A stretch of 56,859 nt of DNA, taken from an uncultured Lachnospiraceae bacterium. GTDB lineage: Bacteria; Bacillota; Clostridia; Lachnospirales; Lachnospiraceae. The position numbers and the translations under genes were made by a program. The notes under the pieces were generated by a model that was not told the DNA's origin, ran no database searches, and saw only the letters and a list, made by a program, of their open reading frames with translations. How positions within the stretch are numbered: position 1 is the stretch's first letter; every line of letters begins with the position of its first letter. Positions 3,794 through 56,859 of this stretch are shown one piece after another. The stretch covers positions 1 to 56,859 of the forward strand of contig CANPYE010000004.1 in assembly GCA_947588005.1 (NCBI GenBank), read 5' to 3'.

Positions 3794-4819
3794 ATGAATG
3801 TATCGGATTTTAATTTTGAACTTCCACAGGAGCTGATCGCCCAGGACCCGCTTGAGGACCGGTCGGCGTCCCGGCTCCTGGTGCTTGATAAGACGACCGG
3901 AGCGGTCTGTCACCGGCATTTTCGGGATATTGTAGATTATCTGCGGCCCGGAGACTGTCTGGTCATCAATGACACGAAGGTGATCCCGGCCAGGCTTTAC
4001 GGCGTGAAGGCCGGCACCGGCGCGAAGATCGAGGTGCTTCTTCTGAAACGCGGAGAGAACGATGTATGGGAGACGCTGGTGAAGCCGGGGAAGAAGGCGC
4101 GGCCGGGGACGGAGATCATTTTCGGGGACGGACTTCTGAAGGGCCGCGTGCTGGAAGTGGCGGACGAAGGAAACCGGATGATCCAGTTTACCTATGATGG
4201 AATTTTCGAGGAGATCCTGGACCGGCTGGGGCAGATGCCGCTTCCGCCTTATATCACGCATCAATTGAAGGATAAGAACCGCTACCAGACGGTGTACGCG
4301 GTTCATGAGGGGTCTGCCGCCGCGCCTACGGCGGGGCTTCATTTTACGAAGGAGCTGTTGGCGCAGATCGGGGAAATGGGCGTGAAGATCGCCCGTGTGA
4401 CTTTGCATGTAGGCCTGGGGACCTTCCGGCCGGTGAAGGTGGAGAATGTGCTTGACCATCATATGCATTCGGAATTTTATATGGTGGACGAGGATGCGGC
4501 GCGGAAAGTCAATGAAACGAAGAAGGCCGGGGGCCGCGTGATCTGCGTGGGAACGACAAGCTGCCGGACCATCGAGTCGGCGGCGGGGGAGGACGGGCTT
4601 CTTGCAGCCGGAAGCGGATGGACGGAAATATTCATTTATCCGGGATATCGGTTCAAGCTTCTGGATGGGCTGATCACCAATTTCCATCTGCCGGAATCGA
4701 CGCTGGTGATGCTGGTGTCGGCGCTGGCCGGACGGGAGCATGTGCTGGCGGCATATAAGGAAGCGATCCGGGAGAAATACCGCTTCTTCTCGTTTGGCGA
4801 CGCTATGCTTATCGTTTAA
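3794..4819 (+). CDS. queA: S-adenosylmethionine:tRNA ribosyltransferase-isomerase
   Basis: QueA transfers and isomerises the ribosyl moiety of S-adenosylmethionine onto preQ1 in tRNA to make epoxyqueuosine. The 341-residue length is normal. Family signatures are present: FDFELP-type N-terminus ([14 protein letters not shown]), [13 protein letters not shown] near 56, LPPYI near 150, the APTAGLHFT motif near 177, [10 protein letters not shown] near 210 and the C-terminal [17 protein letters not shown]. The usual final FSYGDAM is here [10 protein letters not shown]. The gene is intact and is the last host gene before the prophage, so the attachment site lies in or just after its 3' end. Confidence 0.98.
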
Positions 4820-4841: not shown

Positions 4842-4884
4842 ACAAAGAAAAGCTCCTGGAATTAACCGGGGGCTTTTTCTTTGT
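4842..4884. terminator. Bidirectional terminator between queA and the integrase gene
   Basis: An extended inverted repeat runs from ACAAAGAAAAGCTCC to GGGGGCTTTTTCTTTGT. It has a GC core and T tracts on both strands, so it can end rightward queA transcripts and leftward integrase transcripts. The integrase stop codon lies inside it. Confidence 0.8.
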
Positions 4885-6619
4885 ATGTGAATTTGTGGGA
4901 GAGCCCGTTCCTGAACACTATGCAGGAAACCCTCCCGTCAACGAGCATTACGGAATCAAGGATTGTTTCCATGTAGGTTTTCAGCACGTCGGGCGAGACG
5001 CTTTCCGCCAGGTTCTTGTAGTAGATGTACTCCCGGCTGGACAGCTCTCTGGAGATCAGGAGGTGGCTTGCCTGGACAATAAAATCTTCGTCGGACAGGG
5101 TGGAGGTGGCTCCTCTGGAAACCATGCCGAGCTTTGTACTGATCTGCTCCATAGTCTTGACGATTGCCTCTTTTTTGAGAATGAAGTCCTTTTCACTCAT
5201 GGCAGAATCAGAATACAGGTACAAGTCCTGGAGCCGTTTCAAAGCGCGCTCCTGTTTTTCTTTTTCACGTCTGAGCTGTTCGATCTCAGGATCAACAGCA
5301 GCTTTCTTTTTCCGAGGTCTGCGGACAGCGAATGTAAAGGAGCTGTCAGAGCCGTACCGGGACAGCAGGTTAAAGAACTCATGCAGACCGTCCTCGTCAA
5401 TATGTTCAACCTGGGAAAAGGTATTCCCGTACAGCAGCCGACGCTCCAGCTCCTCCGGCGTCCTGATCTTTGAAAAGCCAGCTTTCGCGTTCAGCATATT
5501 CAGGATATAGTTAATGACAAACTCGCCGATCACAATGTCGTTGACGCTGGGATTGTCACACTCTTTCGACCGGCGCCTCAGAGGGCAACTGTACGTTGAG
5601 GTCCGGTAGCCGTTGGCATGGAGCCGTCCGGGAGTAGAAAACATCTTGTTTCCACACTTCCCACAGTACGCGATCCCGGAAAAGACGTGTACGTTTTCCC
5701 TGAGACATTGCTTTCCGAGCGAATTGCGGTTCCTGGCATTATGGTCCCGGATAGCGATCATGCGCTCATGTTCCTCCAGGGTGAAGATAGCCGGGTGATG
5801 ATCTGGAACCATGACCCACTCGTCAGACGGGTTCTCTACCCGGTGTTCGGTTCCCTTGTACCGGTTGTACCGATATATCCCGGCGTAGAACGGACTGGAC
5901 GTTATGATCCAGACAGCGGTAGAGGTCCAGTCAACGCCGGCGCGGGTGACATACCCTCTTTCGTTCATAAGCCGGGCAGTATGGATCAGTGACTTATTCT
6001 CCAGATAGTCGTCCTTTATCTCAATGCAGATTTTCGCCTCGTCCTCTCGGATTGAAAATTTCCCGGTATCAGGATCATAGTCATACCCGAATGGTATGCG
6101 CCCGCCGTTCCATTGGCCGGAGTTTGCCCTGGAGATCATGGTGGCAGTCACGCGCTCAGAGGTCATATTACGCTCAAGCTCCGCAAACACCAGGATAATT
6201 TTCAACATGGCCTCGCCTATCGCCGTGGAAGTGTCGAACTGTTCATTTTTGCTCACAAAGGTAACGCGGAGGTCCCTAAGTTCCTCATACATTTCCGCAA
6301 AGTCCAGCAGATTCCGGGAGATACGGTCAATCTTCCAGACCAGGACGTGGGAAAACTCGCCGGCCCTGATCCTGGAGATCATCTGCTGGAAAGCCGGGCG
6401 GTCAGTATTCTTGCCGGAGTACCCGGCGTCCTCGAAAATCTCATAGTCCTCTATACCCAGAATCAGCTCACTGTATGCAGTCAGGTCTTTGCGCTGCATA
6501 GGCAGAGAATCGCGGTCTATCTGCTGAGTGGTAGATACCCGGATATAAATAGCAACCTTTTTCGGCCTTGACTGGCCTGATTTGGCAATTCTAGGCACTT
6601 TTCTTTTTGTTCTACTCAT
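4862..6619 (-). CDS. Large serine recombinase (prophage integrase)
   Basis: A 585-residue large serine integrase that should catalyse attP x attB integration. The resolvase domain (about 20-160) carries the nucleophile Ser29 in YIRVSTTQQ, and GYSGKNTDRPAFQQM and LVWKIDRISRN follow. A recombinase domain (about 180-300) contains IPFGYDYD. A zinc ribbon near 315-355 has CGKCGNKM and a later Cys pair, and a coiled coil lies near 420-470 (EQLRREKEKQERALKRLQ). The ATG at 6619 follows a GGAGG. It is the outermost left prophage gene, transcribed outward. A separate excision factor is not recognisable. Confidence 0.96.
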   Translation of the reverse strand: MSRTKRKVPRIAKSGQSRPKKVAIYIRVSTTQQIDRDSLPMQRKDLTAYSELILGIEDYEIFEDAGYSGKNTDRPAFQQMISRIRAGEFSHVLVWKIDRISRNLLDFAEMYEELRDLRVTFVSKNEQFDTSTAIGEAMLKIILVFAELERNMTSERVTATMISRANSGQWNGGRIPFGYDYDPDTGKFSIREDEAKICIEIKDDYLENKSLIHTARLMNERGYVTRAGVDWTSTAVWIITSSPFYAGIYRYNRYKGTEHRVENPSDEWVMVPDHHPAIFTLEEHERMIAIRDHNARNRNSLGKQCLRENVHVFSGIAYCGKCGNKMFSTPGRLHANGYRTSTYSCPLRRRSKECDNPSVNDIVIGEFVINYILNMLNAKAGFSKIRTPEELERRLLYGNTFSQVEHIDEDGLHEFFNLLSRYGSDSSFTFAVRRPRKKKAAVDPEIEQLRREKEKQERALKRLQDLYLYSDSAMSEKDFILKKEAIVKTMEQISTKLGMVSRGATSTLSDEDFIVQASHLLISRELSSREYIYYKNLAESVSPDVLKTYMETILDSVMLVDGRVSCIVFRNGLSHKFTYKEKAPG

Positions 6620-7630: not shown

Positions 7631-8128
7631 ATGGAGAGTAGCTGTACGAAATGCAACGAGAATGTGTACTTTGTCTGCAGGAAACAGGCAGCATTGTATA
7701 ACGACAAGCTGAACAGCCGCGAAAACGCTGCCGAGCTCCTGGGAATTTCCCCGTCAACACTCGCAAACCATGAGCTGGGGATCACCAAGAGCGTACCGGT
7801 TGACACGGTTGTGATGATGGCAGACCTCTACCACGCGCCAGAGCTGAAAAACCTCTACTGCAAGAATGAGTGTCCGATTGGTCGGAGTTTACCGGTTGCG
7901 ACGAAAGTAAACACCCTGGAGTGGATAACGATTCGGATATTGAATAATCTGGACGCAGACCGGATCAGGGCGATCAAACAGGCTCTCTTGCGGATAGCGG
8001 AGGACGGCGAGATAGACAGCCAAGAGAGGATAGAGCTTGACGGCATTGTTAAGAATCTGGACAACCTGGCAAAGTCAATCTCAGAGCTGAGACTGCTGGC
8101 AGAGAAATGTGAGGAAAGGAGCGGGTAA
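7631..8128 (+). CDS. XRE-family phage regulator with C-terminal helical domain
   Basis: A 165-residue protein. The HTH lies at about 28-75 (NAAELLGISPSTLANHELG) and is preceded by a Cys-containing N-terminus (CTKCNENVYFVC, possibly metal binding). A C-terminal helical half (about 100-165) contains IRAIKQALLRIAEDGEID. Similar proteins occur in early operons of clostridial siphophages. It lies 32 bp after the Cro-like gene behind a GGAGG and probably controls early transcription, but the target is unknown. Confidence 0.75.
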   Translation: MESSCTKCNENVYFVCRKQAALYNDKLNSRENAAELLGISPSTLANHELGITKSVPVDTVVMMADLYHAPELKNLYCKNECPIGRSLPVATKVNTLEWITIRILNNLDADRIRAIKQALLRIAEDGEIDSQERIELDGIVKNLDNLAKSISELRLLAEKCEERSG

Positions 8129-8130
8129 AA

Positions 8131-8289
8131 ATGGAGCTTGCTGAACGCCTGCGTAAGATCATGGAAAAGGAGTTTGGGATCAGGACGGACGCCGACCTGA
8201 TAGAGGCAGTACAGGATCAGGACGGAGTTGACCTGGGAATATTCGTTATCCCGGTCCAGAAAGGGGATGTTGTGAGTGCGCCGGTCTAA
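8131..8289 (+). CDS. Small early protein, unknown function
   Basis: A 52-residue acidic protein (MELAERLRKIM...VVSAPV). It starts 2 bp after the XRE regulator stop, with GGAAAGGAGCGGG as ribosome site. Its end overlaps the start of the wall hydrolase gene by 14 bp, which suggests translational coupling. No family recognised. Confidence 0.6.
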   Translation: MELAERLRKIMEKEFGIRTDADLIEAVQDQDGVDLGIFVIPVQKGDVVSAPV

Positions 8290-8878
8290 ACGGAAAAGAG
8301 GGACATGGAGGCTTTTGGCGGTTTCTGCGTCCATGATGATTTTAGCATTATCTCTCCAGAGCATAGCGGCGCAGAAAAGGGCGGGAGCTGACAGGCCAGA
8401 GGAAATACAGACCGCACAGGCTGTAACAGAGCCGGAGACGGAACGGCAGACGTCCGGCGAAATGGAAGTATTGCTGGCGGAGCCGGAACAGCAGACAACA
8501 CTGATCCGCAGCCGCGACTGGAGCTGGGAAGATTCGGAGATTCTGCTGAAAATTGCTATGGCTGAGGCAGAGGGAGAACCGACCGAGGGCAAGGCGCTGG
8601 TAATGCTGGTGGTCCTCAACAGGGTATGGAGTGAAGATTTTCCCGGAACGATTCAGGAAGTGGTATTCCAGGAAAACCAGTTCTCCGTTACGGAGCCCGG
8701 AGGGAGGTACTACACGACGGAGCCGAACGAAGATTGCCGGAAAGCCCTGGAGCTTGTGGAAAGCGGCTGGGACGAAAGCCAGGGAGCTTTATACTTCGAG
8801 AGCTGCGACGCCGATAGCTGGCATAGCCGGAACCTGGAATTACTGTTCCAGTATGGCGGCCACAGATTTTACAGGTAG
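8276..8878 (+). CDS. SleB-like cell wall hydrolase, membrane-anchored
   Basis: A 200-residue protein. A basic N-terminus is followed by a hydrophobic signal/anchor at about residues 12-32, a Glu/Gln/Thr-rich linker to about 80, then a hydrolase_2 (SleB-type) domain at about 88-200. That domain has LLKIAMAEAEGEP with the likely catalytic Glu, ALVMLVVLNRV and GALYFES. The family cleaves peptidoglycan glycan strands. The GTG at 8276 fits the frame and the AAGGGGA site upstream. Its place in an early operon rather than the lysis cassette is unusual and suggests action in superinfection, wall remodelling or early envelope change. Confidence 0.85.
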   Translation: MRRSKRKRGTWRLLAVSASMMILALSLQSIAAQKRAGADRPEEIQTAQAVTEPETERQTSGEMEVLLAEPEQQTTLIRSRDWSWEDSEILLKIAMAEAEGEPTEGKALVMLVVLNRVWSEDFPGTIQEVVFQENQFSVTEPGGRYYTTEPNEDCRKALELVESGWDESQGALYFESCDADSWHSRNLELLFQYGGHRFYR

Positions 8879-8888
8879 GAGGAATCGT

Positions 8889-9077
8889 ATGAAATGGGTG
8901 TGTAAAAACTGGCTTATGCTGACGGTTGGACTGATCTTGACGACGCTGGCCGTCCAGTATGCGTACTCAGTCAGGGGCTACATAGCGATAGGGAGCGAAT
9001 GGCTCATTCTCCCGTTTATGTTCTTCTGTAAGTCATTCGCCAGACAGGTCGCGGAGGATGTGAAAAAGTGGTTGTAG
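8889..9077 (+). CDS. Small two-helix membrane protein
   Basis: A 62-residue protein with two hydrophobic segments (about 7-24 and 34-52) and a short charged C-terminus ending KKWL. It lies directly after the SleB-like hydrolase behind AGGAGG and overlaps the next gene by 10 bp. It could be a membrane partner of the hydrolase, or a superinfection-exclusion peptide; neither can be shown from sequence. Confidence 0.6.
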   Translation: MKWVCKNWLMLTVGLILTTLAVQYAYSVRGYIAIGSEWLILPFMFFCKSFARQVAEDVKKWL

Positions 9078-9349
9078 AGTATCAGGAGATCAGGGAGCGG
9101 CTGGAAAGCGACGGGTATTCAGTGAGTGATGAAGATTACGGGAGGCTTGTTGAATACGCCAGGAGGAAAGCTGAAGCCGCAGGAAAAGATGAAAGTTATA
9201 TGCCGTATCTCCTGCCGGACGTGATAAGGGAACACCTCATAAGGGCGGCAATCAATTACGTCGGTTTCGGGATCATGGCTATTAACAAAGAATATCAAGA
9301 GGAGGTAAGAGGTCATGGGTCAAATGACAACAGAACAGTATTTGTCTAA
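9068..9349 (+). CDS. Early phage protein, unknown function
   Basis: A 93-residue, mainly helical, charged protein using a GTG start inside the end of the preceding gene. Its last 35 bases overlap the recT start, so the three genes look translationally coupled. It has no recognisable domain; similar short proteins lie just before recT in clostridial phages. Confidence 0.6.
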   Translation: MVVEYQEIRERLESDGYSVSDEDYGRLVEYARRKAEAAGKDESYMPYLLPDVIREHLIRAAINYVGFGIMAINKEYQEEVRGHGSNDNRTVFV

Positions 9350-10271
9350 GATTCAGGCGGGATTGACCGCTGAACTGACAAAGCACAAAGACGCGCTGCC
9401 ACCGGGTTTCAATCAGACGCGATTCGTCCTGAACTGTATTACAGTGATTCAGGATATGATGTCTGACCGGAAGAAACGGGAAAAGCTGTCAGAGGTAAAG
9501 TTGGAGACTATCCCGGTATGCCTTGCAAAGGGCGCGTACCTGGGACTGGACTTTTTCAACGGGGAATGTTACGCAATCCCATACGGCGGAAATATGCAGT
9601 TCCAGACGGACTATAAGGGCGAGATCAAACTGTGCAAGCGGCACAGCAAATCTCCCATTAAGGACATCTTCGCTAAGGTCGTCCGGGAGGGTGACGAATT
9701 TGTTGAGGAAGTGGACGGAGGAAAGCAAAACGTACTTTTCAGGCCGCGCCCGTTTTCCTCAGCGGCCATGATCGGAGCGTTTGCAATCGTGGTATATAAG
9801 GACGGGTCAATGCTGTACGACACCATGAGCGCGGTCGAGATCGAGCAGGTCCGGGAGACGTACTCAAAAGCGAAGAACAGCGACGCATGGGTGAAGTCCA
9901 CGGGAGAAATGTATAAAAAGACGGTTCTCCGCCGACTTTGCAAGCTGATCGACCTGGACTTTGATAATATCGAGCAGCGCCGGGCGTATGAGGACGGAGG
10001 CGACGCGGTATTTGAGAATCAGATCGGAGGCCAGCCGAGGGCGGCGCTCCCGGACAATGGGACACCGGTAGATGTATTCGCACAGGCGGCACAGCAGAGA
10101 CAGAAAGAGCCGGTACAGGCAAAGCGTCAGGAACCGCAGGAGACACAGGCACAGAGAACGCAGTACGCGGACGAGTTTGCGGACTTCGAGAGGGAATACG
10201 AGGGTCAAGCGCCGGGCTACGATCCAGATTTTAATATCCCAGACGACGATCCGGGTCTGCCGTTCAGATAA
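9315..10271 (+). CDS. recT: RecT family single-strand annealing protein
   Basis: A 318-residue recombinase. RecT coats and anneals single-stranded DNA in phage recombination, working with an exonuclease partner. The conserved core (about 25-240) includes LAKGAYLGLDFFNGECYAIPY, MQFQTDYKGEIKL and RPFSSAAMIGAFAIV. The tail after 240 is Gln/Arg/Pro-rich and ends in an acidic stretch (FNIPDDDPGLPF) like the SSB-type acidic tails that recruit partners. The likely nuclease partner is encoded two genes downstream at 11212. Confidence 0.95.
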   Translation: MGQMTTEQYLSKIQAGLTAELTKHKDALPPGFNQTRFVLNCITVIQDMMSDRKKREKLSEVKLETIPVCLAKGAYLGLDFFNGECYAIPYGGNMQFQTDYKGEIKLCKRHSKSPIKDIFAKVVREGDEFVEEVDGGKQNVLFRPRPFSSAAMIGAFAIVVYKDGSMLYDTMSAVEIEQVRETYSKAKNSDAWVKSTGEMYKKTVLRRLCKLIDLDFDNIEQRRAYEDGGDAVFENQIGGQPRAALPDNGTPVDVFAQAAQQRQKEPVQAKRQEPQETQAQRTQYADEFADFEREYEGQAPGYDPDFNIPDDDPGLPFR

Positions 10272-18328: not shown

Positions 18329-18934
18329 GTGAGCATGGATAACATGGAGGATAACAGCAGTTTACCGGAAAAGAGGATTGAAGTCTTGACTATGAAAGCC
18401 GGGGAGATCAAGACGGGCTTCGGCAATCCGAGGAAGATCACCAAAAAGAAACGCGAGGAGCTGCAGCGCTCCCTGGAGACGTTTGGTGACTTCGGCATAT
18501 TCCTGATCGACGAGCAGGACAACGTGATTGCCGGCAACATGAGGCTGGCGGTCCTGAAAGAGATAAACCCGGATCAGGAAGTCACCTGTAAGAGGCTCAT
18601 AGGCTACACGGAGGCGGAGCTGCGGGCGATCAACATCAAGGACAATACCCATGCCGGGGAGTGGGATATGGACTTGCTGGCGGACTGGACGGCAGATTTC
18701 AATATCGACCTGGGGCTTGACCTGGACACGGGTAATCCGCAGGACAGGCGGATAAAGGAAATGGAGCTGATCAACTACGAGAAGTACAATTACGTCCTGA
18801 TCGTCTGCAAAAACGAGTTGGATTATAACAATCTGACCCGGAGGCTGGGTATCGACACAAAGGCAAAGGTCAAAATCAATGACAAAAAGAAAATACGGGC
18901 AAGGGCGGTGTGGTTCCATGAAACAGGATTATAA
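18329..18934 (+). CDS. ParB/sulfiredoxin-fold nuclease-like protein
   Basis: A 201-residue protein with a ParB N-terminal fold at about 17-100: GFGNPRKITKKKREELQRSL, then GDFGIFLIDEQDNVIAGNMR with the GxxR-type motif. AELRAINIKDNTHAGEWD follows, as in phage ParB proteins of packaging regions. Such domains can bind or cleave DNA, use nucleotides, or accompany DNA-modification genes. The GTG at 18329 follows AAAGGAGGG. It overlaps the glycosyltransferase-like gene by 17 bp, so the two are probably co-translated. Confidence 0.85.
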   Translation: MSMDNMEDNSSLPEKRIEVLTMKAGEIKTGFGNPRKITKKKREELQRSLETFGDFGIFLIDEQDNVIAGNMRLAVLKEINPDQEVTCKRLIGYTEAELRAINIKDNTHAGEWDMDLLADWTADFNIDLGLDLDTGNPQDRRIKEMELINYEKYNYVLIVCKNELDYNNLTRRLGIDTKAKVKINDKKKIRARAVWFHETGL

Positions 18935-19640
18935 GAGTATCGGAATCTATGTACCGTCCTATAAGCGCTCAGACCAGATCAAGACCTGGAATGTCCTGAA
19001 TGATTGTACCTACGTCGTGAGAGAGTCCGAGGCCGAGGCATACCGGGCGGCGGGAGTGACAAAGGTGCTGGCCGCGCCGGACGCGGAGATTGATTCGCTC
19101 CCGAAAGTCCGACAGTGGATCATAGACAATACGCCAGAGGATATTGTAATCCAGGTGGACGACGACCTGCAGAGGTTTTCCTATGCGAATAAGAATAACA
19201 TTGTCGAGATTGAGGACAAGGACGTGATCGACATGGAGCTGGAGCGGGTGGCGCAGATAATCTCCGACCTGGATATAGGATTCGCCGCGCTCCCCATGCA
19301 GGAGAACGTCCTGAAATATTCCAGGGAGTTTTCTTTCCGGTCCACAATCGGGATCGTATGCTGGTTCAATAAATCGGCGCTGGCCGGGCGGTATGATGAA
19401 AATATCCGGTTCAAAGCAGACATTGACTTTGAGCTCCAGGAGCTATTGCATAACCGGATAATGATCGTCCCCGAATATCTGCGGGTGAAAGCGGTCTACG
19501 ATAAGAACGCCGGAGGTAACAGCGTCACAAAGAGCAGCAGGACAATCCAGGAGGCTGTGGAGTACATGAAAAATAAGTGGGGGCGGCATTACTCCCACAA
19601 TTTCAAGAGCAACGTATCGAGGATTAACGTGAGGAGGTAA
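18918..19640 (+). CDS. TET-associated-glycosyltransferase-like (TAGT) protein
   Basis: A 240-residue GT-A-type protein. The N-terminus has IGIYVPSYKRSDQIKTW, the central nucleotide-sugar/metal site is IVIQVDDDLQRFSYAN, and the C-terminal half has FKADIDFELQELLHNR and NAGGNSVTKSSRT. This order recalls the TAGT family, whose characterised members glycosylate hydroxymethylated cytosine in phage DNA. Assignment is from memory of motifs, not a search. ParB-like and sugar-nucleotide dehydrogenase genes flank it. No TET oxygenase or cytosine methyltransferase is visible, so the acceptor could differ. The ATG at 18918 overlaps the ParB gene end. Confidence 0.6.
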   Translation: MKQDYKSIGIYVPSYKRSDQIKTWNVLNDCTYVVRESEAEAYRAAGVTKVLAAPDAEIDSLPKVRQWIIDNTPEDIVIQVDDDLQRFSYANKNNIVEIEDKDVIDMELERVAQIISDLDIGFAALPMQENVLKYSREFSFRSTIGIVCWFNKSALAGRYDENIRFKADIDFELQELLHNRIMIVPEYLRVKAVYDKNAGGNSVTKSSRTIQEAVEYMKNKWGRHYSHNFKSNVSRINVRR

Positions 19641-38466: not shown

Positions 38467-39423
38467 ATGCTGCGTTATGGTTTTTTCGACAGTGAGATAA
38501 CCGGGTACGACGAGGAGGGTATGCCGATTTTCGACAGGGCAGAATCGTCGGACTTCCTGGCTATGTTTATTTCAAGGATCATCAGCGACGGTGTGCTGGC
38601 ACAGCCGGCAGACTGTTTTCAGGTGATTGCAAACGACGGGCTGAGGTTAAAGGTGAGGCCCGGTTTTGGCATTGTAAGAGGCCGATTCGCTATGGACACA
38701 CAAGATTTCGAGGTTGTGATTCCAGAGGCTCCTACGGCCTATAAACGCATTGACAGGGTTATCCTGAGAGCTAACTACCTTATGCGCCGGTGCGAGATCA
38801 TAGTCAAGCCTGGTGTGGCCGCTCAGGAACCGAAACCGCCAGAGCTTTTACAGCCGGAGAGCGGCGACTATTACGAGCTGTGTCTGGCGCTGGTGGCCGT
38901 CAACTCGAATCAGACGGTTATCACTCAGGCAAATATCACAGATACCCGGTACGACAGTTCACAATGCGGAGTAGTGACACAGGTGATAGACCACCTGGAC
39001 ACCTCCGTATTTTTTGCGCAGCTCAACCAGTTTTACGAGGAGTTCACAGGGCAGTCCAATGACGACTACGAGCAGTTCGTCCGGGATATGAAAGCATACC
39101 TGGACGCGCTCAAATTGTCGGGCGATAACCAGCTCACGAATATTGTGGACATTATGAAACAGTTCGAGAACGGCGCGGAGCTGCGGTTTGAAGAATGGTT
39201 CAAGAACGTCAAAGACCAGCTCTCTGAGGACGTCGCCGGACATCTGCAGAACGAGGTGGACGATCTCCTGAACCGGGTAGAGAAGATAGAGTACAGCCTG
39301 ATAAACAACGAGGTAAGCGCTGAGATTGACCTGGAAGATCAGAGCAACGTGATCGACCTGGAAGATCAGAGCGATACCATAGAGGCGTACTGGCAGATAT
39401 GCGACTGTCATTCACGCCATTAA
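38467..39423 (+). CDS. Baseplate / upper tail-fibre protein
   Basis: A 318-residue protein. The N-terminal half is beta-rich, with RYGFFDSEITGYDEEGMPIF and VRPGFGIVRGRFAMDTQDFE. A helical middle (YEEFTGQSNDDYEQFVRDMK) and a coiled segment follow. The C-terminus repeats DLEDQSN/DLEDQSD, encoded by an 18-bp direct repeat near 39331-39380. The N-domain should attach to the tail hub while the C-terminal part carries the receptor-binding protein encoded next. Confidence 0.78.
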   Translation: MLRYGFFDSEITGYDEEGMPIFDRAESSDFLAMFISRIISDGVLAQPADCFQVIANDGLRLKVRPGFGIVRGRFAMDTQDFEVVIPEAPTAYKRIDRVILRANYLMRRCEIIVKPGVAAQEPKPPELLQPESGDYYELCLALVAVNSNQTVITQANITDTRYDSSQCGVVTQVIDHLDTSVFFAQLNQFYEEFTGQSNDDYEQFVRDMKAYLDALKLSGDNQLTNIVDIMKQFENGAELRFEEWFKNVKDQLSEDVAGHLQNEVDDLLNRVEKIEYSLINNEVSAEIDLEDQSNVIDLEDQSDTIEAYWQICDCHSRH

Positions 39424-39444: not shown

Positions 39445-40377
39445 ATGGGAAAAAGAGTATCAGACATGGAGGCAGCCGGCGAGTTGAATCTGGACGATCT
39501 TCTCATGGTAGTTGTCGGGCAGAAGAACAACTACAAGATCACTTTCGGCGATCTCTGCGAGCAGGTCAAGAAACAGTTAAAAATTCCTGATGTCGTGGAG
39601 AGTATCAACATATCCGAAAAGTTGAAGATTCCGGACGGCCCCGTAATCAAAGAGGCGTTCGACAACATCAACGACCTGCTGATCTCCGCAGCAACGTACA
39701 CAGGAAAGCCGATTGGTATGTCCTGGGCGGAACTCTCCGCAAAGGTAAAGACGGAGGACTTCACCGGTTTGCATATCGGTGACTATATCGACATCCAGCA
39801 CACGGACGGCGAGGAGGCCAGAGTGGAATTGTCAGGGTTCAATACCTACATGAACGTGGGAGATAACCCTGTTTTGACAGCTCCGCATCTGGTCTTTACT
39901 TATCGTGACTGTCTGAAAGACACCTACAAGATGAATCAGACGAACGATAACACCGGAGGTACGGCGGCGGCAGAGCTGACTACCACGGTAAATACCACGA
40001 TCTACAATAAGCTGCCGGCAGACCTGCGGGCGGTCATTAAAGAGGTGCGGCGTCTGGAGAATAACAAGGGTACATGGGCATGGGCGAGCCGGAAGTTATG
40101 GCTCCTCCAGGAAACGGAAGTTTTCGGGCGGAACAACTGGAGCGACGGTTACGACGGCGGCGGTATTCAGCTCCCGATCTTCGCTCATTCCTACCGGCAC
40201 ATTGTTAAGGGATTAGGAAAAGGCGCGGCGGAACGCGGTTCTCGCGCCAACTGGTGGCTGGCCTCGCCGTCGAGCGTCTACGCTACGGCCTTTTGCATTG
40301 TCTCCAGCTATGGCCACGCCAGCAGCCACTACGCGTCCTACTCTTTTGGCGTCGCCCCCGGCTTCGTAATCTGCTAA
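39445..40377 (+). CDS. DGR target: variable tail protein with C-type-lectin-like domain
   Basis: A 310-residue protein. The N-terminus (SDMEAAGELNLDDLLMVVVG, YKITFGDL) looks like a tail-attachment region. The C-terminal domain (about 95-310) has PADLRAVIKEVRR, KLWLLQETEVFG, NWWLASPSSV and GVAPGF, as in DUF6273/FGE-type C-lectin folds used by many DGR targets. Codons 265-307 form the variable repeat. Thirteen residues differ from the template, all at template Asn codons: 279, 282, 285, 287-289, 291, 293-296, 299 and 301. It probably binds the host receptor. AAAGGAGG precedes the ATG. Confidence 0.93.
   Translation: MGKRVSDMEAAGELNLDDLLMVVVGQKNNYKITFGDLCEQVKKQLKIPDVVESINISEKLKIPDGPVIKEAFDNINDLLISAATYTGKPIGMSWAELSAKVKTEDFTGLHIGDYIDIQHTDGEEARVELSGFNTYMNVGDNPVLTAPHLVFTYRDCLKDTYKMNQTNDNTGGTAAAELTTTVNTTIYNKLPADLRAVIKEVRRLENNKGTWAWASRKLWLLQETEVFGRNNWSDGYDGGGIQLPIFAHSYRHIVKGLGKGAAERGSRANWWLASPSSVYATAFCIVSSYGHASSHYASYSFGVAPGFVIC
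40237..40365 (+). repeat. DGR variable repeat (VR)
   Basis: 129 bp at the 3' end of the target gene, aligned without gaps to the template repeat 917 bp downstream. There are 18 differences, of which 17 lie opposite template adenines (8 to T, 5 to C, 4 to G). The other is a silent G-to-T at 40284. The first 42 bases are identical. The invariant end GGCGTCGCCCCCGG fits the initiation-of-homing role of a GC-rich VR terminus. Confidence 0.96.
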
Positions 40378-40415
40378 TCTTCCAATCCCACCCCCTTGTG
40401 GGGTGGTTGGAAGAT
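40377..40415 (+). other. Hairpin/cruciform element after the VR
   Basis: ATCTTCCAA (40377-40385) pairs with TTGGAAGAT (40407-40415). Inside it CCACCCC pairs with GGGGTGG, leaving a 2-nt bulge on the 5' side and a CTTGT loop. It begins at the target stop codon, 11 bp after the VR. In Bordetella phage BPP-1 a hairpin at this place stimulates retrohoming. It lacks a T tract, so a terminator is less likely. Confidence 0.75.
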
Positions 40416-40443
40416 GGCGCGAATAAAACAGAAAGGAGCAGTA

Positions 40444-41121
40444 ATGAGCGTACTGAAAAACGACCGGGGAACGTCCGACCTGGAATTTTACCATACCGCG
40501 AGAATTTTGCGGCGGGAGATCACGCGGGAGCTCCTGCATGACTTTGGCGTCATGGACAAGGAAAACCGCAAGGCGAAGAATTTCCCGGACGACGGGCTGC
40601 GGGTCCAGATAGTAAAGCAATACCCGAAAATGGAAATATTTTTCAACAAGTACACCAGAATGAGGGAGGAGCTGAGGACGCGGGACGTTGTATCGGAGTA
40701 CCCGTTTTGGCTGGTATACAGGTTCCGTGATGAAATGATGGACTACCTGAAACAGCTCATGGACAACATCACCGCCGCGAATACGATTTACCCGGTGGAC
40801 GAGCGGGAGCTGGCCGACAGGCGGGCATACCAGACAATGGCAATAGCAAACTGCGAGCAAATGCTGCAGGCGTTCCAGTACATCATGGACGTGCTGCCGG
40901 TGGACGCGAATAAAATGCTCCGGTATGTTGACCTGATCGAAAAGGAAATTGCTCTGCTGAAAGGCTGGAGGAAAGCGAACAGCAAGATCGCCAGGCGTAT
41001 GCAGAAACAGCAGGAGGGAAACGCCAGGGCGTCCAGCGGGGAGCAATCCCAGGGAGCCAGAAAGCAGACGGGAGGGGCACGGTCGAGGAGGCCGGCTCCT
41101 CCAGCGAATCAGGATAAGTAG
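40444..41121 (+). CDS. avd: Avd-like DGR accessory protein
   Basis: A 225-residue helical protein between VR and TR. Residues about 1-190 contain Avd-type bundle helices (SDLEFYHTARILRREITREL, YPFWLVYRFRDEMMDYLKQL, ADRRAYQTMAIANCEQMLQA, MLRYVDLIEKEIALLKGWRK). The last 40 residues are a basic, disordered tail (Arg/Lys/Gln/Ala). It is longer than the about 125-residue Bordetella Avd. Avd binds the reverse transcriptase and template RNA and is needed for mutagenic cDNA synthesis. The ATG at 40444 follows AAGGAG; a TTG at 40396 lies inside the hairpin and is rejected. Confidence 0.85.
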   Translation: MSVLKNDRGTSDLEFYHTARILRREITRELLHDFGVMDKENRKAKNFPDDGLRVQIVKQYPKMEIFFNKYTRMREELRTRDVVSEYPFWLVYRFRDEMMDYLKQLMDNITAANTIYPVDERELADRRAYQTMAIANCEQMLQAFQYIMDVLPVDANKMLRYVDLIEKEIALLKGWRKANSKIARRMQKQQEGNARASSGEQSQGARKQTGGARSRRPAPPANQDK

Positions 41122-41153
41122 TTTATGTCACAGGTTATTTTCTGTAATAAATG

Positions 41154-41282
41154 GGTTCTCGCGCCAACTGGTGGCTGGCCTCGCCGTCGAGCGTCAACGC
41201 GACGAACTTTTGCAATGTCAACAACAATGGCAACGCCAACAACAACAACGCGTCCAACTCTAATGGCGTCGCCCCCGGATTC
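41154..41282 (+). repeat. DGR template repeat (TR)
   Basis: A 129-bp non-coding copy of the VR between avd and the reverse transcriptase gene. In the VR frame it has 14 AAC/AAT codons, mostly clustered from base 61 to 111. Of its 31 adenines, 17 differ in the VR. AAY codons are the classic DGR design: adenine mutation yields many residues but never a stop. The transcript from here should be the RNA template for mutagenic reverse transcription. Confidence 0.96.
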
Positions 41283-41532
41283 TGTGACAGCGGGCTATGA
41301 GTAGGTTTGTCAACCGATCCGCTGTAACTCGGAAGGAGAAAATAACCGTCCCGTCAAGGGTAAATTTATGCTTCGATACGGGCGGGTGGACGCTGCTTGC
41401 ATGGCGGCCTCTGAAATGAGGAACTACCTGAGAACGGTGGTAGCGGGTTGTGCCTGTCCCGACGCTACATACCCGGTCCCGTTAAGCAGTTAGTGTAAAG
41501 GCATGATTCAAAATACTGTACGGAGTGTGTTT
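41283..41532 (+). other. Spacer between TR and reverse transcriptase gene
   Basis: 250 bp without a credible gene. In characterised DGRs the RNA downstream of TR is needed for priming of cDNA synthesis by the reverse transcriptase-Avd complex, so this stretch probably belongs to the functional DGR RNA. It includes GC-rich segments around 41366-41430 able to pair, but I cannot fold it reliably by eye. Confidence 0.6.
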
Positions 41533-42804
41533 ATGAATAGTGAGGAGAGGAGGGAAAGACGTTACCAGAGGAGAAAAGCCGCCAGGAAAAGACAGCGGGA
41601 TAAGCGGTTGAAAGAGTATGACGATTTCGACCAGGTTACGGACGCAAACAATCTCATACTGGCCTTTAGAAAATCAAAGTCCGGCGTGGACTGGAAAGCC
41701 TCTGTCCAGAGGTATGAAATGAATATGCTGAGGAATGTCAACAATACCGTAAAATCTCTGACAGCGGGAGAGGACGTTTCTCAGGGTTTTATTGTGTTCT
41801 GGCTGTGCGAACGTGGAAAGCTCAGAATGATTAAGAGCGTACACATCAAGGAACGGGTAATACAGAGGGCCTTATGTGATTATGCGCTTGTACCCACTTT
41901 GCGGAATGGCCTTGTCTATGACAACGGCGCAAGCATGGAGGGAAAGGGTATTCACTTCGCGCTCAACAGGCTGGAGGCACACCTACACCAGTTCTATCGT
42001 GACAATGGTTTCTCAAACGACGGCTACATACTGGTAATAGACTTCTCGAAGTATTTCGACAATATTCTGCATGAGCCGGTGTATGACATACTCGCGCAGA
42101 ATTTTAGTGATGATAGAATACTGAATCTTGCGGGGCAGCTAATCCGCCCTTTTTGCGCTGGCCGCGAGGACGGGCTGCAAATATCACTCGGCATAGGGAG
42201 CCAGATTTCCCAGATTTTGGCTATCCGGTTTCCAAGTGACATAGACCATTTCATAGAGCAAGATTTAGGCGTACATTATCACGCCCGCTACAATGACGAC
42301 AGTTACCTGATCCACCAGAGCAAAGAGTATCTATGGCACTGTCTGGAAGTCCTGGAGGAAAAATTCCGGGAAAAGGGTATCATCATCAACCGGAAGAAAA
42401 CCCAGGTTATAAAATTGTCGTCCTGGTTTACATTCCTGAAATGGCGGTACAAGCTGACCGACACCGGCGGTGTAGTTAAAAAACCGTGTCCTGAATCAAT
42501 CACCAGGGAACGGAATAAGCTCAAAAAGCTCAAAAAGAGGTTCGACGCCGGCACCGTCACATTTGAAGATGTGAGGTGCCAGTTTGATTCCTGGGAGGGC
42601 TACATCAAGTATGGAGATTCCACCAGGACAGTCGAGAATATGTGTAATTTGTTTAACCGGCTGTTCGTACTGCCGGAGAATGGAGGTAATTATGGAGCTC
42701 ATAAAGTTCAAAAACGCAGATCAGAAGTACGAGGCAACGCTGACACCGGTAGGAAAAAACAAAGTGTCAATCCTGTTCGTCGGAGCGATCCCCCGTGGGA
42801 TTGA
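41533..42804 (+). CDS. DGR reverse transcriptase
   Basis: A 423-residue error-prone reverse transcriptase. A basic N-terminus precedes RT motif A (VIDFSKYFDN near 168-177), the DGR-typical motif GIGSQISQI at 220-228 in place of the group II intron type, and the catalytic YNDD at 253-256. Most RTs read YMDD or YADD, so Asn at the second place is less common. LKKLKKRF and the later thumb-like region follow. The ATG at 41533 (GGAG 7 bp upstream) is preferred to 41503. The 3' end overlaps the next gene by 113 bp, and the last 40 residues are basic and may be dispensable. Confidence 0.94.
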   Translation: MNSEERRERRYQRRKAARKRQRDKRLKEYDDFDQVTDANNLILAFRKSKSGVDWKASVQRYEMNMLRNVNNTVKSLTAGEDVSQGFIVFWLCERGKLRMIKSVHIKERVIQRALCDYALVPTLRNGLVYDNGASMEGKGIHFALNRLEAHLHQFYRDNGFSNDGYILVIDFSKYFDNILHEPVYDILAQNFSDDRILNLAGQLIRPFCAGREDGLQISLGIGSQISQILAIRFPSDIDHFIEQDLGVHYHARYNDDSYLIHQSKEYLWHCLEVLEEKFREKGIIINRKKTQVIKLSSWFTFLKWRYKLTDTGGVVKKPCPESITRERNKLKKLKKRFDAGTVTFEDVRCQFDSWEGYIKYGDSTRTVENMCNLFNRLFVLPENGGNYGAHKVQKRRSEVRGNADTGRKKQSVNPVRRSDPPWD

Positions 42805-43384
42805 TACCTCGGAGATCACCGTTTATACGGAATCGGGCGTCATGTATCTGGAATTAACCGGGTTCACGACGGAGTACAGACGGGTGGACGGTACGCTGAT
42901 CCTCTCGAATGACGGTTCAGTATATCCCGGAGAGGTGGAGCAGGAGATCGACCAGGAGAAGTTGCTGGAGGACGCAAAGGTTTCCAAAAAGTCGGAGGTC
43001 TGCCTGGTATGCAATACCACGATCACCGCAGGCTGTGACGTCATGGTGGGCGGCAAGCCGGAGCATTTCCGCCTGACGACGGACGACCAGCTCAACCTGT
43101 TCGGAAAGCAGATTCAGATTATGACCGGCTCGGAGAAGTTCGAGTACCATGAGGACGATAACCCGTGCCGGTATTTCAGCAAGGAGGAAATGCAGTCCAT
43201 TATCACGGCGCTCATGGCGTTCAAGACCTATCACACGACCTACTGTAACGCGCTGAATATGTGGATAAAGGCGTCTGAGACGGTGGAGGAAGTCCAGGGA
43301 ATCTATTACGGCTGCGAGGTTCCGGCAGCATACCAGAGTGAAGTCCTGAAAGACCTTATGAAACAGCAGGAGGGCATGGCATGA
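42692..43384 (+). CDS. Tail-region phage protein, unknown function
   Basis: A 230-residue protein. A beta-rich N-terminus (KVSILFVGAIPRGIDTSEIT) is followed by DQEKLLEDAKVSKKSEVCLV and a C-terminal helical domain (YFSKEEMQSIITALMAFKTY, MWIKASETVEEVQGIYYG). The last part recalls DUF4376-type tail proteins and tail-fibre assembly factors, but I cannot assign it firmly. The ATG at 42692 has GGAGG 5-6 bp upstream, so it truly begins within the reverse transcriptase gene. It overlaps the next gene by 4 bp. Confidence 0.7.
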   Translation: MELIKFKNADQKYEATLTPVGKNKVSILFVGAIPRGIDTSEITVYTESGVMYLELTGFTTEYRRVDGTLILSNDGSVYPGEVEQEIDQEKLLEDAKVSKKSEVCLVCNTTITAGCDVMVGGKPEHFRLTTDDQLNLFGKQIQIMTGSEKFEYHEDDNPCRYFSKEEMQSIITALMAFKTYHTTYCNALNMWIKASETVEEVQGIYYGCEVPAAYQSEVLKDLMKQQEGMA

Positions 43385-56121: not shown

Positions 56122-56859
56122 ATGGAAAGAGCATACGGCACAATTAACGAGAATATGGCAAGGGCAGCCAAAAACGCCAACTCCATGAGCGATTACCGCG
56201 ATGGGAGCGCCACTGAGGAATACAGGCAGTACGTCGATCTGGTGTACGACATTGTGGAGAAGATTGCAGAGGTACGGCCCCACTTGCTGGAAAAGGCTAT
56301 CAGAATGGCGGAGCGGTACAGCCGGAAACTGGCTGATTATTACAACGCATACTACCGGAACGAGGCAAGCTGCCCGTCGATCCTGATCTCAGGAGGCGGC
56401 AATTTCCCGGTTCGGAAAAAAGAGCGGCAGAACAGCCGGAGGGAAACGCTGATGAATGAGTGGCACTATCTCTCCGGGTACGCGGAGAGGATCAGGAGCC
56501 TGCTGACAATGGAGCAGCCGATCCTCTCCAGCGACGAAAACGCGATTGAGGCTCTGGAGGAAAAGCTGGCCGATCTGACGGCCACGCAGGAAAGAATGAA
56601 AGCGGCGAATAAGGCAATCCGCATGAAAGATGTGGAGGAGGGCAACGGTGTACTGGCGTCCCTGGGGTTCAGCGAGGAGGAGATCGAAAGTCTGAGGACG
56701 CCGGACATCTGCGGGAGAATCGGTTTCCCGGATTACGAGCTCTCCAATAACAACGCCAATATCCACCGCGTAAGCGGGCGACTGGAAAGCCTGAAAAAGG
56801 TAAAAGAGGCCGGCGACAAACAGACGGAATGTGAGTTTTGCAAAATCGTCGAGGACACG
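56122..56859 (+). CDS. Mobile-element protein, cut off by the window end
   Basis: The frame is open from ATG 56122 (GGAGGC upstream) to the last base, giving at least 246 residues. An N-terminal helical domain (YRQYVDLVYDIVEKIAEVRP) is followed by FPVRKKERQNSRRETLMNEW and a coiled segment (ALEEKLADLTATQERMKAAN). GRIGFPDYELSNNNANIHRV then leads to CEFC near the window end. This plan is common in clostridial phage, plasmid and ICE proteins of unknown function. The 3' end is outside the window. Confidence 0.75.
   Translation, partial: MERAYGTINENMARAAKNANSMSDYRDGSATEEYRQYVDLVYDIVEKIAEVRPHLLEKAIRMAERYSRKLADYYNAYYRNEASCPSILISGGGNFPVRKKERQNSRRETLMNEWHYLSGYAERIRSLLTMEQPILSSDENAIEALEEKLADLTATQERMKAANKAIRMKDVEEGNGVLASLGFSEEEIESLRTPDICGRIGFPDYELSNNNANIHRVSGRLESLKKVKEAGDKQTECEFCKIVEDT

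Follow-up and report, generated by a model that had tools for sequence, protein, structure and literature searches.

A complete diversity-generating retroelement in a Lachnospiraceae prophage whose single template very probably serves two target genes

The stretch of DNA considered here (the window, 56,859 nucleotides [nt] long) comprises positions 1 to 56,859 of the forward strand of contig CANPYE010000004.1, called C4 below, in assembly GCA_947588005.1 of an uncultured Lachnospiraceae bacterium. It holds a tailed prophage with a complete diversity-generating retroelement (DGR), in which one template repeat (TR) very probably serves two target genes: one, in the window, for a tail-tip protein, and one for a small stand-alone protein on another contig of the same genome, C46. 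Two-target phage DGRs have already been published, as seen in the accessible parts of the reports on nd4 and nd12 (PMC10743442) and on Lelie, CP11 and Lagaffe_CP (PMC11792537). The point of interest is the recurrent location of the second target outside the structural genes, and what this suggests about its function.

A preliminary description, made from the sequence of the window alone, had claimed a full set of DGR parts in a prophage tail-tip locus, in the order target gene with a variable repeat (VR) at its 3' end, hairpin, Avd, TR and reverse transcriptase (RT). The coordinates, the mismatches between TR and VR at adenines and the family matches of Avd and RT confirm all of these parts, in that order and on the + strand:

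38467..39423, + strand: structural gene directly upstream of target gene 1 (phrog_1220, E 6.1e-55, labelled "head protein")
39445..40377, + strand: target gene 1, a 310-amino acid (aa) tail-tip protein with a C-terminal DUF6273 domain containing the VR (Pfam PF19789, E 6.5e-12)
40237..40365, + strand: VR1, 129 nt, at the 3' end of target gene 1
40366..40385, + strand: 3' flank of VR1 resembling an initiation of mutagenic homing (IMH) element, also found 3' of VR2 and without a counterpart after TR; GGCTTCGTAATCYGCWAATC begins within the VR end
about 40377..40416, no strand: hairpin 3' of VR1, core stem CCACCCC-CTTGT-GGGGTGG
40444..41121, + strand: Avd, 225 aa, its C-terminal tail being basic (phrog_3206, labelled "Avd protein of DGR", E 8.8e-8, residues 94-203)
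41154..41282, + strand: TR, 129 nt with 31 adenines
41287..41548, + strand: RT-2 RNA (Rfam RF03077) in the spacer between TR and RT, 94.5 bits vs a gathering score of 40
41533..42804, + strand: RT, 423 aa with RYNDD and IGSQISQ motifs (phrog_1423, E 8.8e-70); an alternative in-frame ATG lies at 41503

The tail-tip setting is supported by matches to Dit and minor tail proteins among the genes upstream of 38467..39423 and target 1. The gene that directly precedes the target had been called a baseplate gene; its match is to a family labelled as a head protein, and it is the Dit and minor-tail genes before it that fit a tail-tip position. From this position, target 1 is plausibly the receptor-binding protein. 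Its C-type-lectin fold is suggested by the DUF6273 match and by PMC10743442; a sequence search of the PDB with 13 aligned small targets gave a single match (E 0.07). Avd has no Pfam match for the Avd family, and its sequence found no solved structure in the PDB (best E 0.34).

VR1 differs from TR at 18 of 129 sites, and 17 of these are TR adenines; over TR positions 17-125, 16 of 28 adenines are changed vs 1 of 81 other bases (Fisher p 7.6e-11). When the TR is searched against its own genome, four places are returned: TR, VR1, C46:2770-2882 (88%) and C5:35563-35652 (74%). The match on C46 is a second VR, and it ends a second gene of the same family:

C46:2770-2882 (= L068:2770-2882), outside the window: VR2, covering TR 17-129
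L068:2247-2900, outside the window: target gene 2, a 217-aa open reading frame (ORF) with VR2 at its 3' end and DUF6273 as its sole Pfam match (E 7.5e-15), directly preceded by an N6/N4 DNA methyltransferase gene (L068:1460-2221)

All 13 mismatches between VR2 and TR fall at TR adenines (Fisher 9.7e-9 over TR 17-125). A comparison of the two VRs shows 15 differing sites, 14 of them TR adenines, which implies two or more separate events. GGCTTCGTAATCYGCWAATC and a CTTGT-loop hairpin close both VRs, while TR has neither. The hairpin after VR1, likewise part of the preliminary description, folds as DNA with a z score of -6.4, and none of 200 shuffles folds equally well. Among 14 two-target loci, a stem of at least 7 bp is found within the 75 nt after VR1 in 11 and after TR in none. 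Three points weigh against this account. One VR1 mismatch, a G to T change at position 48, is not at an adenine. Nine adenines are altered in both VRs, five of them to the identical base, which could hint at selection or a shared history. A GC-rich stem of at least 7 bp follows VR2 in just 8 of the same 14 loci, vs 11 for VR1; in G325, there is only a 6-bp AT stem after VR2. For nd4, nd12 and Lelie, no stem of at least 7 bp occurs within 75 nt of either VR.

The arrangement is not peculiar to this prophage. Seventeen loci, this one included, carry a remote second VR, about 5.6-31 kb from the TR, and its mismatches are concentrated at adenines: 15/15 in Roseburia phage Shimadzu, 9/10 in nd4, 13/13 in nd12, 15/16 in Dulem virus 34, 15/15 in Fontainebleau, 13/13 in MT835491, 15/17 in Lelie, 18/18, 16/17 and 13/13 in loci L132, L133 and L134, 10/10 in G172, 13/17 in G288, 15/15 in G060, 13/17 in G324, 15/16 in G325 and 16/16 in G326. 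The small protein served as the query that found several of these, which biases any rate drawn from the 17 loci. A further possible second VR (L020, 15/15 at adenines) lies at the edge of its locus without a clear gene and was left uncounted. An RT match was present in 46 phage records. Twelve of these were examined, completely or for the most part; a remote second VR occurs in seven and is absent from five (MT837512 and MT835664, fragmentary at 7.9 and 22.5 kb, MT835543, MT835569 and MT835552). The small target itself matched in 18 of 299 genomes, its own included; an RT search in 14 of the other 17 gave some match in all 14, many of them weak. In viral contigs, the C46 target as a lone query found no relative, and a four-row alignment of targets found 29 loci; RT matches accompany 16 of these 29 IMG/VR records. 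The matched ORF resembles the tail target instead in L161, L163, L165 and L166, and MT835607 and MT835625 have a relative of the small target with no RT match within the stretches fetched. In another genome of this genus, where no DGR RT comes close (best E 5.8e-5), a relative of the small target (G017:C87:9796-10365) contains two stop codons within the match; it may belong to a decayed prophage of this type. Remote targets may be undercounted, since a large metagenome survey states, in the part of its text available, that its approach could not detect them (PMC8144416).

The RT belongs to a lineage in which one RNA recurs. In a 66-row tree (L081 and L037 dropped before building, no retrons included), it falls within a set of 27 rows, all DGR-type, with support 98/85, and five QGxxxSP RTs, labelled by motif only, lie apart, separating at 100/100; the comparison with DGR RTs proposed in the preliminary description thus places it among them. 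Among solved structures, 8ub7 ("Reverse transcriptase", E 6.5e-13) is its closest match; we take this to be the BPP-1 enzyme. A group II intron RT/maturase was considered and rejected, with a TIGR04416 score of 65.6 bits vs a cut-off of 300 and the separation from the QGxxxSP rows. RT-2 RNA is present in 26 of 47 distinct DGR-RT sources scanned. Within the window's clade, 25 of 27 tree rows have it (the exceptions are L049 and L239), as against none of 16 scanned rows outside; of the sources not in the tree, L037 has it and L016, L034 and L046 do not. In the window, the Rfam model is matched at full length between TR and RT, with a 54-nt insert at 15 model positions. An alignment of 21 spacers (MAFFT) shows strong covariation, with at least one compensatory change in 25 of 30 pairs called by RNAalifold. 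Such a searchable, covarying model, tied to the spacer, could serve for DGRs of the whole clade. RT-2 was reportedly described by Weinberg in 2017, in a paper outside the literature search made here. In that search, RF03077 was named only by the Rfam 15 paper, as a table entry with no function in the part seen (PMC11701678), and no match joined "RT-2 RNA" with "diversity-generating"; no claim is made that the link is unpublished. A 20-nt near-repeat (90%) joins the RT-2 region (41412-41431) to the Avd gene (40731-40750), possibly by chance.

Do these elements still diversify their targets? Among 86 sources, 72 have a repeat pair involving the region before the RT. In 23 pairs of sources with RTs more than 95% identical, the VRs differ at 302 of 696 TR adenines vs 8 of 1621 other sites; seven of these pairs are identical throughout and are probably duplicate contigs. 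Between L009 and L041, whose RTs are identical at 1040 of 1041 positions, the VR differs at 23 of 34 adenines and at none of 73 other sites. VRs are thus not fixed in near relatives, which the preliminary description had named as the comparison to make. L159 and L160 are identical in sequence, so no variation of VR2 is visible between them, and a position-by-position comparison of VR2 in L133 and L134 was misaligned (TR identity 27 of 95) and set aside; in nd4-like phages the second VR is variable too, according to the accessible text of PMC10743442. By homology with BPP-1, the TR RNA and its RT-2 spacer would be bound by RT and Avd, and complementary DNA (cDNA) would be synthesized with errors opposite template adenines. 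The mutated cDNA would then replace VR1 in the tail-tip protein or VR2 in the small DUF6273 protein some 18 kb away, the IMH-like stretch and the CTTGT-loop hairpin acting as 3' signals on both VRs and absent from TR. In BPP-1, a different gene could be made a target of the machinery with no more than IMH and hairpin (PMC3240598, in the portion consulted).

VR2 counts as part of this prophage if C4 and C46 are two pieces of it. The features that bear on this are:

4799..4809, no strand: core of the left attachment site, GACGCTATGCT, at the 3' end of a queA-like gene; the second copy is at C46:4266, outside the window
4862..6619, - strand: large serine recombinase (Pfam Resolvase, Recombinase, Zn_ribbon_recom), the proposed integrase of this prophage
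56821..56859, + strand: the end of the window, its last 39 nt identical to C46:237-275

The window starts with uvrB-like and queA-like genes (named by reading, without a family search), followed by the recombinase, and C46 has, past the second core, a pseudouridine-synthase-like gene (also named by reading), which directly adjoins queA in 19 of the 22 loci of relatives fetched with queA (exceptions L114, L115 and L121); 12 uninterrupted queA ends were read for the attachment-site comparison. With the attachment core at both ends and the complementary host flanks of one queA insertion, C4 and C46 appear to hold opposite ends of a single insertion. In addition, the reading frame open at the window end runs on into C46. 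If the contigs abut at the overlap, TR and VR2 are about 18 kb apart (15.6 kb in the window and 2.5 kb on C46). Against this stand the facts that no single contig spans the join and that C46:1-236 is unlike the window sequence upstream of the overlap. It could then be supposed that C46 comes from another element or strain, with VR2 either in the target gene of that other element, reached in trans, or left over from an independent DGR, and the genome is indeed fragmented (232 contigs, 81% complete, 3.8% contamination). This is highly improbable given the shared flanks and the 39-nt overlap, and C46 as a different element was rejected on that overlap, the gene order beside queA and the attachment cores. 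It is likewise unlikely, if slightly less so, that the DGR is a relic with its parts complete and its activity lost. An exact 23-mer of the TR found no match among viral contigs, and so no second copy of this prophage in which to compare VRs, as would fit a relic; on the other hand, the reading frames of RT, Avd and both targets are uninterrupted, the TR, 3' signals and RNA are intact, and near relatives vary at TR adenines, so the DGR may well be active. RT-2, for its part, extends into the RT start (ATG 41533), as a regulatory leader of the RT gene outside the template RNA might, but this is quite unlikely, since RT-2 starts 1-12 nt past the TR end at most of the loci compared, with gaps of 31 nt for L013 and 81 nt for L037, and in BPP-1 the folded spacer brings in RT-Avd and provides an internal adenine from which cDNA is primed (PMC12875486, as far as its text was available). 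Most simply, RT-2 would be this clade's equivalent of that spacer, the RT-Avd-binding part of the template RNA.

What, then, is the small stand-alone target? Its DUF6273 domain was tested with Pfam for C46, L132 and L134 and is named in the available text of the papers on nd4 and nd12 (PMC10743442) and Lelie (PMC11792537); the remaining small targets are connected by tblastn similarity to C46 or to aligned targets, the most divergent gene being that of MT835491. Phage DGR targets are usually taken as receptor binders, and a further virion adhesin of the Mtd type, with its place outside the structural genes incidental, has only slightly less than an even chance of being correct: both targets carry DUF6273 and share one TR, and a Mtd-like role was supposed by the authors for nd4_tgt2 and nd12_tgt2 (PMC10743442, in the part seen). 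The position of the gene argues otherwise, though indirectly. It lies 5-31 kb from the tail cassette, and its direct neighbour encodes a DNA methyltransferase or a DNA polymerase in 8 of the 17 loci (the former in this prophage, Shimadzu, Dulem 34, G325 and G060, the latter in Fontainebleau, G326 and nd4), in a scan of neighbours that left out L132, L133, L134 and nd12. In L151 (Fontainebleau) and L159 (G326), whose small proteins are alike, it sits directly 3' of a DNA polymerase A gene; in G288, a cytosine-methyltransferase-like ORF precedes it (by reading, not by family scan), and in G172 and Lelie its neighbours have no Pfam match. Furthermore, the protein is a single domain, lacking the N-terminal part of the tail target. 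In 16 small targets (MT835491 excluded), no mean hydropathy over 19 residues exceeds 1.34 and none over the N-terminal 12 residues exceeds 0.94, which gives no indication of a signal peptide or membrane segment. Target 2 may act within the cell and not in the virion, and its gene position suggests early expression. Tentatively, and as a possibility more than an expectation, these loci would represent a widespread group of phage DGRs in which one template diversifies both an outer tail-tip binder and a small intracellular, non-virion protein from the replication or DNA-modification block, with RT-2 as the RT-Avd-binding part of the template RNA. If so, the small protein would serve inside the cell as a randomised recogniser, its partners being perhaps proteins of host defence or of rival phages. 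Among the literature matches listed, none deals with a second phage DGR target that is non-structural or acts inside the cell; "early" and "replication" are absent from the main text of PMC10743442 as available, and "early", "replication module" and "far from" from that of PMC11792537. A recurrent stand-alone second target far from the tail genes makes DGR diversification of intracellular proteins a testable question.

Is this DGR otherwise unusual? The combination of a long Avd, a YNDD active site and a short 129-bp repeat pair had been put forward as special, and of this only the Avd holds, by a modest margin. Measured by one script as the longest ORF between VR and TR, Avd is the longest at 241 aa (225 from its ATG) vs 101-212 aa in relatives, five loci yielding no ORF under the filter. 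YNDD is also found in L044, L047 and L055, in a tally that is incomplete since the script pattern matched another spot in some rows. The repeat is not short either, as most TR/VR pairs in relatives span 84-136 nt and that of G126 is 147 nt long.

Elsewhere in the window, a gene overlapping the RT end (42692-43384) matches phrog_1348, a tail fibre protein, and one in the left block of the prophage (18879-19640) matches phrog_842, a beta-glucosyl-HMC-alpha-glucosyltransferase that may modify DNA or another substrate. The same genome has a second complete DGR in L069 (G000:C5), near tail-like genes (VR 7916-8038, Avd 8101-8511, TR 8532-8654, RT 8755-9912), with 15/15 VR mismatches at TR adenines. 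A third RT, in L072 (G000:C6, 2761-3783, - strand), is preceded by a 111-nt repeat pair with 24/24 mismatches at adenines and constitutes a third DGR, on another RT branch of the tree.

Among known systems, BPP-1 has the same basic parts: TR, VR, Avd, RT, an IMH-like 3' end, a hairpin after the VR and a structured spacer between TR and RT (PMC3240598, PMC12875486, in the portions available). The window DGR differs in having two targets, DUF6273 instead of Mtd, a hairpin loop of CTTGT rather than GRNA, and an Avd without a sequence match to a solved structure. The accessible text on nd4 and nd12 (PMC10743442) describes one TR with two VRs, the second 11-14 kb from the TR in a target that consists of DUF6273 only; their RTs, on the other hand, are 28-32% identical to that of the window, and their target 1 is tentaclin, with Ig domains and its VR near the 5' end. 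Target 1 of the window is not a tentaclin by these marks, since its VR is at the 3' end and Pfam gives no Ig match. Faecalibacterium prophage Lelie has a large and a small DUF6273 target and one TR (PMC11792537, in the part seen), with an RT 27.5% identical and no RT-2 match; along its right end, seven RAGATH-5 ribozyme matches lie among small genes (L265:43922-48597, - strand). Roseburia phage Shimadzu (LR596903) differs from the present prophage in its myovirus-type genes, with an annotated tail sheath, and in its shorter Avd (annotated at 19125-19535), but it shares an RT 46% identical, the RT-2 RNA, and a tail target together with a remote small target next to a DNA methyltransferase gene.

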